Source of the DNA: Actinomycetota bacterium
Lineage (GTDB): Bacteria; Actinomycetota; Acidimicrobiia; Acidimicrobiales; JAJPHE01
Assembly (NCBI GenBank): GCA_027315345.1
Contig: DAHUYE010000060.1
Coordinates: forward strand, 1 to 64,000
Length of the DNA stretch: 64,000 bases
Reading direction: 5' to 3'
The notes beneath the pieces are model-generated. The model was not told the origin of the DNA. It made no database searches and saw only the letters and a program-made list of their open reading frames with translations. Every line of letters starts with the position of its first letter. Position 1 is the stretch's first letter. A program made the translations under genes and the position numbers. This document shows, one piece after another, positions 10,870 to 37,467 of this stretch.

Positions 10870-12093
10870 TTACGCGCACTCCACCAGTTGACGCTCGGAC
10901 AACTCGGAATGCAGCCAATCCACCGCCGCCGCCGCCCTCCGCCAGCTGTAGCGCCGGGCGTTGACGGCCGCCGCCTGGCCCAGGGCCCGGCCCCGCTCCG
11001 GGGAAGCCAGGACCCACTCCACGGCCCGGGCGAAGGCCTCGGGGCGGCGCTCGGGCACCAGCACGCCGGTCTGGCCGTCCACGATCAGCGAGCGCAGGCC
11101 CCCCACCGAGGTGGCCACCACCGGCACGCCGCAGGCGCCGGCCTCCAGGGCCACCAGGCCGAAGGACTCGGTCCGGCTCGGCACCAGGCAGACGTCGGCG
11201 GCCCGGCAGAAGGTGGACACCAGCTCATGGGGCTGGGGCGGGAAGAAGTGGACCCGGTCGCTCAGGCCGGCCCGGTCCACCAGGGCGTGGACCCGCTCCA
11301 CCTCGGCCTGTCCCCCCGGGCCGCTGGCTCCGCCGGCCACGACCAGGAATGCGTCCTCCCGGCGAAGGTGCTCCAGCGCCCCCACCGCCACATCCGCCCC
11401 CTTGAGCGGTTGGATGCGCCCGATGAAAAGGAGCATGCGCCCCTCGGTGGGCAGGCCCAGGGCCCGCCGGGCCCGGGTGCGCTCCCCCGGGGCGAAGAAG
11501 GCGTGGTCCACCCCGGGGGCCACCACCCGGATCCGCTCCCGGGGGGCGTCATAGAGGTCGACCAGGTGGTCGGCCTCGGGCCGGTTGGGGGCCAGGATGG
11601 CGTCGGAGCAGCCGATGACGGCCTGCTCGGTCTCCACCCGGCGCGGGTCGTCACTTCCGTCCGAGGCGCCGGTGGCGGCCTTGACCCGCTCCAGGGTGTG
11701 GAAGGTGGAGACCAGCGGGAGGTCGAGGCGGTGCTTGAGGAGGTGGCCGGCCGCCCCCGAGAGCCAGTAGTGGGCGTGGATCAGATCGACCGGGGAGCGC
11801 TCCAGCCAGACGCCCACCCCGTCGGCGAACTCCTCCACCAGCCCGCCCAGGTCGGCCTTGGGCACCGGGGCGATGGGCCCGGCCGGCACGTGGTGGACGC
11901 GGAAACCGGGCTCGACCGGGATGACGGCGGGGGCCCCGGGGTCGTCGGCCCGGGTGAACACGTCGCATTCCGAGCCGGACCGGGCCAGGGCGGTGCAGAG
12001 CTCGCGCACGTACACGTTCATCCCCCCGCCATCGCCTGACCCCGGCTGGGCGAGAGGGGACGTGTGCATCGAAAGCACCGCCACTCTCCTCAC
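10870..12093 (-). CDS. mshA: D-inositol-3-phosphate glycosyltransferase (mycothiol synthesis)
   Basis: A 407-aa GT4 glycosyltransferase that joins GlcNAc from UDP-GlcNAc to inositol-3-phosphate, the first step of mycothiol. The MshA hallmark SMHTSPLAQPGSGDGGGMNV is at residues 8-27; then HAHYWLSG, FIGRIQPLKGADV and the nucleotide-binding ESFGLVALEAGACGVPVVAT are visible. Length and N-terminus match the family. It is the last gene of a minus-strand run starting at rsiG or the membrane gene above it, with 13 bp to the XRE gene. Presence implies mycothiol as the thiol buffer. Confidence 0.92.
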   Translation of the reverse strand: MRRVAVLSMHTSPLAQPGSGDGGGMNVYVRELCTALARSGSECDVFTRADDPGAPAVIPVEPGFRVHHVPAGPIAPVPKADLGGLVEEFADGVGVWLERSPVDLIHAHYWLSGAAGHLLKHRLDLPLVSTFHTLERVKAATGASDGSDDPRRVETEQAVIGCSDAILAPNRPEADHLVDLYDAPRERIRVVAPGVDHAFFAPGERTRARRALGLPTEGRMLLFIGRIQPLKGADVAVGALEHLRREDAFLVVAGGASGPGGQAEVERVHALVDRAGLSDRVHFFPPQPHELVSTFCRAADVCLVPSRTESFGLVALEAGACGVPVVATSVGGLRSLIVDGQTGVLVPERRPEAFARAVEWVLASPERGRALGQAAAVNARRYSWRRAAAAVDWLHSELSERQLVECA

Positions 12094-12106: not shown

Positions 12107-12511
12107 TTACCGGCCGAGGGCGGAAGGACCCTCCCCGGGGCCGGTCCTCCCGGCCTCGGTGGGCTGGTCGAATGACTCGTAGAGCCGGATCAGCTGGTCC
12201 TTCTGGTCATCGGTGAGAACCGGGTCCCGGCGGATGTGGCCGGCCAGGTCGGCCCCCCGCTCCAGGATCCCGGCCCGCTCGTAGAGGCTCTCGGCGGAGA
12301 TCTGCAGCGCCTTGGCCAGCCGCTGGAGGATCTCCGCCGAAGGCTTGCGCAGACCCCGTTCGATCTGGCTGAGGTAGGGGTTGGACACCCCGGCCAGGGC
12401 CGACAGCCGCCGCACCGACAGCCGAGACTCGCTGCGGCGCTCCCGGATGAAGCCGCCCAGCTCCCGGCGCCGGTCCGGCCCGGTGGAGGACTCGGGGAAT
12501 TCCTCGGCCAC
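12107..12511 (-). CDS. XRE-family transcriptional regulator (copy 1)
   Basis: A 134-aa protein with an N-terminal lambda-repressor-type HTH: LGGFIRERRSESRLSVRRLS, AGVSNPYLSQIERGLRKPSA, then LQRLAKALQISAESLYERAG. The C-terminal part (residues about 85-110) ends in DDQKDQLIRLYESF, followed by a loose tail. It is a clear paralogue of the gene at 37015. The family resembles mycobacterial Rv0474, which neighbours hbhA and mshA. It sits 8 bp below rsiG and 13 bp above mshA, so it is co-transcribed with both. Targets are unknown. Confidence 0.85.
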   Translation of the reverse strand: MAEEFPESSTGPDRRRELGGFIRERRSESRLSVRRLSALAGVSNPYLSQIERGLRKPSAEILQRLAKALQISAESLYERAGILERGADLAGHIRRDPVLTDDQKDQLIRLYESFDQPTEAGRTGPGEGPSALGR

Positions 12512-12519
12512 GCTCCCGC

Positions 12520-13059
12520 TCAGCCCAGCAGGGAGTCGACGCTGGCCTCACCGGACTGGTACCGGCGGACCAGTTCGGCCTGGAAGCGGTCGATGCGATC
12601 GTGCACGGCCCGGCGATTGGCGGACAGCTGGCGCTCGATCACGGCCATGGAGTCGGTCAACTCGGCCAGGACCTCATCGCTCAGGGCGGGCAGGTCGGTC
12701 AACTGGGCCGGGTCGATGCTCCGGTCGAGGTCGGCCACCAGCGCCGCGGCCATATCCCCGGGGTCGAGTTGGGAAAGCAGCCGATTGCTGCTGCGCGATC
12801 CGCTGTCGGCCAGGATGCCGGGCAGCTGCTCGAGGATGTCGGCCGCCCCGCCGCCGTCGGAACCACCGGCCCGGCGCTGGCGCTCGGCGGCCACGATGTC
12901 GAGCCGGCCCTGCACCACCCGGCGCACGTAGGAGATGGCTCCCTCCGCCTCCTGCAACTCGCTGCGGGCCTGCCGCAGCTGGGCCATCGTCCGCTTCTCC
13001 AGGTCGTCCAGGAAGGACGGATCGAGGAATCGGGCCAGATCGGAGGGCTCTATCGGCAT
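12520..13059 (-). CDS. rsiG: RsiG-family c-di-GMP-binding anti-sigma factor (AmfC-like)
   Basis: A 179-aa, mostly helical protein. Residues 39-54, EGAISYVRRVVQGRLD, fit exactly the E-x3-S-x2-R-x3-Q-x3-D signature by which Streptomyces RsiG binds cyclic di-GMP. A second copy at 142-157, ERQLSANRRAVHDRID, keeps E, S, R and D but has His in place of Gln. Two motifs on two long helices match the RsiG fold, in which c-di-GMP locks the protein onto the sigma factor WhiG. No whiG-type sigma gene is in the window. Neighbours are an XRE gene and mshA. The identification rests on motif and architecture only. Confidence 0.8.
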   Translation of the reverse strand: MPIEPSDLARFLDPSFLDDLEKRTMAQLRQARSELQEAEGAISYVRRVVQGRLDIVAAERQRRAGGSDGGGAADILEQLPGILADSGSRSSNRLLSQLDPGDMAAALVADLDRSIDPAQLTDLPALSDEVLAELTDSMAVIERQLSANRRAVHDRIDRFQAELVRRYQSGEASVDSLLG

Positions 13060-15154: not shown

Positions 15155-15949
15155 TCAGCGCGAGACGGCCGACCGGGGTACCTCGAACCAGACCGCCTTG
15201 CCCTGGGGGAGGCGCCGGGTCCCCCAGGCCGAGGCGTAGGTGCTGACCAGGGCCATCCCCCGGCCCGAGGTGGCCTCCGGCTCGACCTGGCGCACCACCG
15301 GGAGGTCGGGACTGCGGTCCAGGACCTCGACCCGGATGGAACTGGGGCGGAGCTGGACCACCACCTCGGCCTCCGAGCGGGCGTGGAGCACGGCGTTGGT
15401 CACCAACTCGCTGACCAGGAGCTTGACCACCTCGGTGGGCTCGCTGGTGTCCCATTCGGCCAGGGTCGACTCCACGAAGTGGCGGGCGGAGCGGGCGCTT
15501 TGGACCTCGGCGGCCAGGCGGGAGCGGGCCTCGGACAGGCCCTGCTCGACGGCCTCCAGGGCTCCGGCCACGGCCAGCAGGCCATCGACCAACTCACTGG
15601 GGGGAAGTCCCTTCTCCAGGTAGCCGACCGCCCCCAGCGACCGGGCCTCGGCTTCCATGGTGTCGTCCTCGGTGTTGGAGACCACCACCACCCGGGCCCC
15701 CGGAGCCGCCTCCCGGAGCCGGGGTAGGGCCTCCAGACCGGCCATGTGGGGCATGACCAGGTCCAGGAGGATCAGATCGGGGTGGAGATGGGTGGCCAAC
15801 TCGACGCCCTGTTGGCCATCGGAGGCTTCGCCGACCACCCGGAAACGCTGGTCCCCATCCAGCACGAGCCGCAGCAGCCGGCGGGCGTCGGCCAGGTCGT
15901 CCACCACCAGGACGTCCAGGCAGGGGGCCGGAGCCGCTGCCGTCGTCAT
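15155..15949 (-). CDS. Response-regulator receiver fused to an RsbW-type HATPase
   Basis: 264 aa in two parts. Residues 10-125 are a CheY-like receiver with the acidic pocket VVDD, the phospho-acceptor Asp63 in LILLDLVMP, Ser91 in VVVVSN and Lys113. After a short helix (130-165) comes a GHKL ATPase domain with the N-box LLVSELVTNAVLHA (Asn185) and GRGMALV (229-235), of the anti-sigma serine-kinase (RsbW/SpoIIAB) type. It has no DNA-binding output, so phosphorylation probably gates a switch kinase acting on an anti-anti-sigma protein or a sigma factor. No STAS-domain partner is adjacent. Confidence 0.85.
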   Translation of the reverse strand: MTTAAAPAPCLDVLVVDDLADARRLLRLVLDGDQRFRVVGEASDGQQGVELATHLHPDLILLDLVMPHMAGLEALPRLREAAPGARVVVVSNTEDDTMEAEARSLGAVGYLEKGLPPSELVDGLLAVAGALEAVEQGLSEARSRLAAEVQSARSARHFVESTLAEWDTSEPTEVVKLLVSELVTNAVLHARSEAEVVVQLRPSSIRVEVLDRSPDLPVVRQVEPEATSGRGMALVSTYASAWGTRRLPQGKAVWFEVPRSAVSR

Positions 15950-36547: not shown

Positions 36548-36886
36548 ATGCCCACCGCCATCACCGAGATCACCGAGCGCATCCAGGACCAGGTCCTCGA
36601 CTTCGTCAAGACCGGCCAGGAGGCCGTCATCGACGCCGTCCGGAACCTCTCCAGCACCGTCGAGGGCGTCCTGCCCGAGGCGGCCAAGACCGGTCTGGCC
36701 AGCAACATCCCCGTGGCCACCGAGGCCGTCGATTCTGCCTTCGGCTTCGCCGGCAAGGTCCTCGAGATCCAGCACGGCTTCTTCACCCAGGTCCTCGGGG
36801 CCGTCACGCCCGGCACCTCCGTGCCCGCCGCCCCCGCCACCAAGACCGCCCGGACGGCCAAGTCCGGCACCACCGCCGCCGCCTGA
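36548..36886 (+). CDS. Phasin/HbhA-like small helical protein
   Basis: 112 aa from ATG 36548 (AGGAGA 10 bases upstream). Residues 1-85 form amphipathic helices (MPTAITEITERIQDQVLDFV, EAVIDAVRNLSSTVEGVLPE), the rest is an Ala/Pro/Thr/Lys-rich tail (KTARTAKSGT). This layout resembles phasins and the mycobacterial heparin-binding hemagglutinin, which coat lipid inclusions or the cell surface. Codons are almost entirely the C-ending optimal set, and with a near-consensus promoter and a perfect terminator it should be one of the most abundant proteins here. The XRE gene follows, as in the Rv0474-hbhA pair. Confidence 0.7.
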   Translation: MPTAITEITERIQDQVLDFVKTGQEAVIDAVRNLSSTVEGVLPEAAKTGLASNIPVATEAVDSAFGFAGKVLEIQHGFFTQVLGAVTPGTSVPAAPATKTARTAKSGTTAAA

Positions 36887-36910
36887 ACCCCCCCTCGGGT
36901 AGCGGTATGA

Positions 36911-36942
36911 GCGAAGGGGCGACCTCAGCGTCGCCCCTTCGC
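36911..36942 (+). terminator. Perfect 13-bp hairpin terminator
   Basis: GCGAAGGGGCGAC (36911-36923) pairs without mismatch with GTCGCCCCTTCGC (36930-36942) around the loop CTCAGC. It lies 25 bp past the HbhA-like stop. No T-run, but the stem is very stable. Confidence 0.7.
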
Positions 36943-37014
36943 CGCGTCCGGGTCCGGACCGCCCGGCTGCCGGCCTCCCCGCCCCGGCGCCCACCCGTGG
37001 GTACGGTTGCCGGG

Positions 37015-37467
37015 ATGGACACGGACGGTGAGGTCGAAAGCCCCCTGGAGCGGGCGACCCGGCGCCCCCGGGCCATCAAGGACCGGGTCATGAAAGATCA
37101 GTCCCAGTCCCTTCAGGCCCATCTCGAGACGCTGGGCAACTTCATCCACAGCCAGCGCAAGCTGGCCAACCTCTCTCTGCGCGAGCTGGCCGAGAGGACC
37201 AACGTCTCCAACCCGTACCTGAGCCAGATCGAACGGGGCCTGCACGAACCCTCCGTCCGGGTGCTTCGCTCCATCGCCCGGGCCCTCAACGTCTCGGCCG
37301 AGACCCTCCTGGCCCAGGCCGGCATCCTCGAAGGCGAGGAGGCCGGCGGAGCCGAACGGCCCCAACCGAGCACCGAGGACGCCATCCGGGCCGACCGCTT
37401 CCTGAGCGACTCCCAGAAAGAGGCGCTCCTCACCGTCTACCGGAGCTACCGGGCTGCTTCGGCCTGA
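37015..37467 (+). CDS. XRE-family transcriptional regulator (copy 2)
   Basis: 150 aa from ATG 37015. A basic leader of about 35 residues (ERATRRPRAIKDRVMKD) precedes the HTH: LGNFIHSQRKLANLSLRELA, NVSNPYLSQIERGLHEPSVR, ALNVSAETLLAQAGILE. It shares NPYLSQIERGL and the C-terminal SDSQKEALLTVYRSY layout with the regulator at 12107. Copy 2 follows the HbhA-like gene after a terminator and may regulate it or the membrane protein across the shared promoter region (inference). Confidence 0.85.
   Translation: MDTDGEVESPLERATRRPRAIKDRVMKDQSQSLQAHLETLGNFIHSQRKLANLSLRELAERTNVSNPYLSQIERGLHEPSVRVLRSIARALNVSAETLLAQAGILEGEEAGGAERPQPSTEDAIRADRFLSDSQKEALLTVYRSYRAASA

Follow-up and report, generated by a model that had tools for sequence, protein, structure and literature searches.

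RsiG-family proteins keep a transcription switch closed as long as a signal molecule is plentiful. In Streptomyces venezuelae, RsiG (6pfj, 6pfv) is a twin-motif monomer, its partner is the sigma factor WhiG and its output is sporulation. The RsiG of Rubrobacter radiotolerans (7lq2-7lq4) is a short protein with one motif per subunit, which forms a homodimer and controls type IV pili. In the literature found, a role of RsiG-WhiG outside Streptomyces has been published for Rubrobacter only. The consulted passages of PMC8325347 give type IV pilus genes and DGC/PDE genes as the predicted targets of Rubrobacter WhiG, and report twin-motif RsiG in three of four Acidimicrobiales species. These passages give no output for the Acidimicrobiales proteins.

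The window is the whole stretch of 64,000 nucleotides analysed here, from a bacterium of the class Acidimicrobiia. Its minus strand carries an rsiG gene at 12520..13059, with the ATG start codon at 13059, which encodes a twin-motif RsiG-family protein of 179 aa, a predicted c-di-GMP-dependent anti-sigma factor. The protein matched Pfam RsiG (PF22802) in two stretches with 103.4 bits (cut-off 27). In a phmmer search against solved structures S. venezuelae RsiG (6pfj) aligned to residues 23-178 (E 2e-17), while the single-motif RsiGs of Rubrobacter matched the first helix only. An AlphaFold2 model built from an alignment of 51 class members had a pLDDT of 89 and contained two long helices, 25-64 and 128-169, with one motif each. 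Four of 262 Foldseek matches to this model were significant (E <= 0.001) and all were S. venezuelae RsiG chains; 6pfv and 6pfj matched with a probability of 1.0 and a TM of 0.62-0.65. VIA-align gave the S. venezuelae RsiG chains Z scores of 13.8 and 13.1 (best alignment: Z 13.8, rmsd 4.5, 155 residues) and the next chain 8.6. This gap is the telling part of the comparison, because helical bundles reach high scores by chance. The predicted structure is an antiparallel coiled coil of the two motif helices with a linker, the arrangement expected of a twin-motif RsiG. With 179 aa and two motif helices the protein does not have the single-motif form of Rubrobacter. Pfam, phmmer, Foldseek and VIA-align all bear out the RsiG-type anti-sigma identity proposed in the first-pass annotation. 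That annotation also read the protein as a possible intermediate, a reading not supported here: like the twin-motif S. venezuelae RsiG, it has the linker as well as the two motif helices. The protein is an ordinary, full-length twin-motif RsiG of its class, in which the family is present in 184 of 296 genomes.

Both five-residue motifs were found in the ORF translation at the residues given by the first-pass annotation, which named no strand; they are encoded on the minus strand. Motif 1 (12898..12945) spans residues 39-54 with the form E-x3-S-x2-R-x3-Q-x3-D (E39, S43, R46, Q50 and D54) and lies in predicted helix 25-64, the equivalent of alpha-1. Motif 2 (12589..12636) spans residues 142-157 with the form E-x3-S-x2-R-x3-H-x3-D (E142, S146, R149, H153 and D157) and lies in predicted helix 128-169, the equivalent of alpha-5. 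The twin E-x3-S-x2-R-x3-[Q/H]-x3-D form therefore fits the protein, and a form with a strict Gln in motif 2 does not; the family motif is also written with [Q/H] in PMC8325347. Of 100,000 shuffles of the protein, 0.09% contained E-x3-S-x2-R-x3-[QH]-x3-D one or more times and none contained it twice. Among 441 six-frame stop-to-stop segments of at least 80 aa in the window, rsiG was the one motif-bearing segment, with two motifs. These counts argue that the twin motif is not due to chance.

Conservation was assessed in 90 class RsiG homologues, composed of the 30 best-scoring (the window's own included) and 60 further ones, every second of the next listed, and thus not a random draw from the 184 RsiG-positive genomes. 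S43, R46, S146 and R149 were invariant (90/90) and the motif-2 Glu was kept in 89/90. The stacking sites varied. Motif 1 had Gln in 54 homologues and His in 36, and the corresponding site of motif 2, residue 153, had His in 50, Phe in 20, Gln in 11 and Tyr in 9. The window's own pair, Q/H, was the commonest (36/90) and a Q/Q pair was absent from all 90. Pairs followed families, with Q/F in 13/13 members of family f2, Q/H in 7/7 of f37 and H/H or H/Q in 14/14 of f35.

The His of motif 2 had been regarded as a mark of an odd variant with altered affinity, a view that does not agree with His being the modal class residue. His might still weaken or abolish one half-site, leading to poor c-di-GMP binding or to constitutive WhiG binding. 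Residue 153 does differ from the Gln of S. venezuelae, and 79/90 class homologues have His, Phe or Tyr there, so that affinity may be tuned by lineage. A damaged half-site is nonetheless improbable given the modal His and the retention of the motif-2 Ser, Arg and Glu, and at the matching motif-1 site His suits stacking. Passages of PMC8325347 state that the motif-1 Gln is often His and that His is able to make the same guanine stacking contact. Taken with the modal His and the common Q/H pair, this makes the window RsiG standard for its class. The same passages mention His for motif 1 only and say nothing of the variation among His, Phe and Tyr at the motif-2 stacking site. This variation marks a variable motif position and provides natural variants for affinity comparison.

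The first-pass annotation had called for a search for a WhiG-type sigma factor and took its absence from the genome as evidence against its proposal. A whiG gene was found at C7:9140-9817 on the minus strand, with 275.9 bits to TIGR02479 (FliA_WhiG, cut-off 189.6). It is unlinked to rsiG and is flanked by a gene for an integrase-type (XerC/D-like) recombinase and by rpsB, both named by reading their translations. The best match among solved structures was S. venezuelae WhiG with 322 bits, compared to 161 bits for FliA. A search for named relatives with RsiG itself returned none. With WhiG the closest named relatives were from Acidimicrobiia MAGs and, among isolates, from Acidiferrimicrobium, Ferrithrix (F. 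thermotolerans) and Acidithrix (A. ferrooxidans). A K-Y-V-A-G-R stretch is identical to that of S. venezuelae WhiG and K57, G61 and R62 are conserved. The cognate WhiG has all three of the c-di-GMP-contact residues; passages of PMC8325347 name the WhiG residues which contact c-di-GMP in the complex. WhiG loci of RsiG-positive genomes (n = 29) had K-G-R in 27 cases and K-S-R in two.

A second, diverged FliA-like sigma factor is encoded in the same genome at C4:61826-62479 (L087:9761-10639). It was ruled out as the partner of RsiG, as it scored 175 bits, below the cut-off, and is without the K/G/R contacts. Paralogues like it occur in relatives, including the RsiG-negative genomes G110 and G114. 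Some of the promoters described below could be recognised by this sigma factor too.

Across the genomes of the class, RsiG and WhiG are found together. A WhiG/FliA-type sigma factor over the cut-off was present in 59/61 RsiG-positive genomes and in 44/44 of those at least 90% complete. It was present in 9/80 RsiG-negative genomes, sampled from 112, and in 6/42 of the complete ones, a contrast which is inflated because 42 of the 80 were small genomes (about 0.6-1.1 Mb) of family f30; without f30 the count was 9/38. The Fisher tests on these counts treat genomes as independent of relatedness. Up to seven RsiG-negative genomes carried a canonical or truncated WhiG, and several of those genomes are incomplete.

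Directly downstream of rsiG, after a gap of 8 bp, is a gene for an XRE-family regulator (12107..12511, minus strand, Pfam HTH_3), which is probably in the same operon. It is followed by a gene for an MshA-like glycosyltransferase (10870..12078, minus strand), which scored 393 bits against TIGR03449, below the cut-off of 462.5. In 89 class loci the glycosyltransferase gene was near rsiG in at least 61 and a MoaD-like gene, also a conserved neighbour, in at least 60; short flanks make all neighbour counts lower bounds. The XRE gene was near rsiG in at least 40 of these loci, and its adjacency, together with the unlinked whiG, would suit a protein that has lost ligand control and become a plain coiled coil with another partner, such as the XRE regulator. 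The strong constraint on the motif residues and the tracking of WhiG by RsiG presence make such a protein highly improbable.

Other arrangements were seen around rsiG in class relatives. In L101 and L125 the stretch from rsiG to the XRE gene also contains genes for a receiver-domain protein and an HD_5-domain protein. Downstream of rsiG, L091 has just the receiver gene, and the spacing in L143 suggests a similar arrangement. By motif the HD_5 proteins of L101 and L125 are presumably HD-GYP phosphodiesterases, a likeness that would place possible c-di-GMP breakdown within the rsiG operon. The window gene at 15155-15949 on the minus strand, 2 kb from rsiG, encodes a fusion of a receiver domain with an RsbW-like HATPase (HATPase_c_2), possibly an anti-sigma or kinase-type regulator. 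At 36548-37467 on the plus strand a second XRE regulator, with an HTH resembling that of the rsiG-adjacent one, adjoins a small protein with no Pfam match, which looks phasin-like.

To our knowledge sporulation is not known in this group of Acidimicrobiia. No flagellin was found in the window's own genome and flagella were therefore ruled out as the output of the switch. The genome has a pilB-pilT-pilC operon and 21 GGDEF matches. A Mutator-family transposase gene (L084:16987-18501, plus strand, contig C17) was observed directly after pilC, in a place where one would look for more pil genes. PilB itself (L084:12676-14391) has an MshEN domain. By eye the first Arg appears to be missing from both 24-residue MshEN motifs, as these are given in passages of PMC5013675, and direct c-di-GMP control of the PilB ATPase is thus doubtful.

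Upstream of pilB by 51 bp is a putative flagellar-type promoter with a perfect -10 GCCGATAA, a weak -35 (TCCA) and 16 bases between the two. Because an exploratory inspection turned it up, it is not independent of the hypothesis. The promoter pattern was defined as TAAA-N14-16-GCCGATAA; spacers of 13-17 were viewed first and 14-16 was then fixed for the tests. The scan of the genome covered 233 genes, taken from a simple gene caller in the window and the fetched stretches. At two or fewer mismatches the pattern preceded 4/21 pilus or c-di-GMP-enzyme genes (0.07 expected) and 3/212 other genes (0.35 expected) (Fisher p 0.0015). At three or fewer it preceded 7/21 (0.85 expected) and 7/212 (4.87 expected, near chance), respectively. 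Besides pilB the matched genes were a GAF-GGDEF-EAL gene, a PAS-HD gene and a GAF-GGDEF gene (L266), in which the promoter overlaps the called start codon. One of the three matches among other genes, with a single mismatch, was a FIST-domain gene directly upstream of a GGDEF-EAL gene. A gene for an NlpC/P60 protein also had a close match. An exact-match search of the genome returned no site. With a spacer of 15 the pattern had 41 sites genome-wide and its reversed control 42, so it showed no excess. At the level of sequence, flagellar-type promoters precede pil and DGC/PDE genes, as in a Rubrobacter-type regulon.

To test the pattern outside the genome in which it was discovered, pilB upstream regions of class relatives were scanned from -150 to +15. 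The scan covered the pilB loci other than L176, G079:C3, the second PilB copies (L245-L250) and further paralogues for which no locus was given, and its RsiG-negative set was made without the 42 family f30 genomes. Among pilB loci of RsiG-positive genomes 8/29 matched at two or fewer mismatches (0.09 expected from shuffles) and 16/29 at three or fewer (1.01 expected from shuffles). All of these matches were in 23 orthologous loci (at least 54% identity), giving 8/23 and 16/23. Control windows of the same loci matched in 5/1,213 (0.4%) and 49/1,213 (4%) cases, respectively. In RsiG-negative genomes 2/21 pilB loci matched at two or fewer mismatches and 6/21 at three or fewer. Four of the genomes with these matches (G200, G162, G068 and G016) carry WhiG and the remaining two are G100 and G228. 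G100 is WhiG-negative, is assembled in about 500 contigs and belongs to a genus with an RsiG-positive member. The seven pilB loci of family f5, all from RsiG-negative genomes and six of them shown to be WhiG-negative, had no match at either threshold.

In this group, type IV pili are probably under the control of twin-motif RsiG. The lack of flagellin and the promoters at pilB and c-di-GMP genes, here and in relatives and as in Rubrobacter, make pili the probable output. It is likely that RsiG with c-di-GMP sequesters WhiG and that WhiG drives pilB-pilT-pilC and c-di-GMP genes and not sporulation. RsiG would be a monomer whose two motif helices together make up an antiparallel coiled coil and hold a c-di-GMP dimer, Gln50 and His153 each stacking on a guanine. 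The loaded RsiG would bind and sequester WhiG. A drop in c-di-GMP would free WhiG, which would then transcribe from flagellar-type promoters. Its targets would most likely be the pilB-pilT-pilC operon and several genes of c-di-GMP synthesis and breakdown, and the result would be pilus control with feedback in place of sporulation.

PilB was found, at the threshold used, in 29/61 RsiG-positive genomes, and pili therefore cannot be the output in all of them. RsiG-WhiG could then be a conserved c-di-GMP switch whose main output is cell-envelope or stationary-phase genes, the pilB promoters being minor or limited to some lineages. The roughly half of RsiG-positive genomes that lack PilB at this threshold, the NlpC/P60 match and the lack of a genome-wide excess of sites would all suit such an output. 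It is considered unlikely, as matches at three or fewer mismatches outside the pilus and c-di-GMP genes were near chance and pilB was a strong and repeated target across relatives.

Compared to the known systems, the window RsiG has its full-length similarity, two motifs and fold in common with S. venezuelae RsiG, and its WhiG has the same c-di-GMP contacts. It differs in its stacking sites, Q/H here and Q/Q in S. venezuelae, and in its likely output, pili and c-di-GMP enzymes here and sporulation there. With Rubrobacter RsiG it has the motif in common, but both helices are in one chain. The promoters of its genome match the pattern of predicted Rubrobacter WhiG targets in passages of PMC8325347, and the Acidimicrobiales RsiGs of those passages share its taxonomic group and architecture. 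The new part is the likely output of a twin-motif RsiG in Acidimicrobiia, a testable regulon. If true, a pilus and c-di-GMP output in a twin-motif lineage that is not known to sporulate would uncouple the architecture of the protein from its biological role, and pilus control would be older than spore control for the RsiG-WhiG switch. We tentatively suggest, as an idea with not quite an even chance of being right, that control of pili and c-di-GMP enzymes is an old shared job of RsiG-WhiG in Actinomycetota that the single-motif form (Rubrobacter) and the twin-motif form (Acidimicrobiia) have both retained. The intragenic duplication would then predate the recruitment of the switch to Streptomyces sporulation and be independent of it, and the Gln/His/Phe/Tyr stacking position would serve as a lineage-specific affinity dial.
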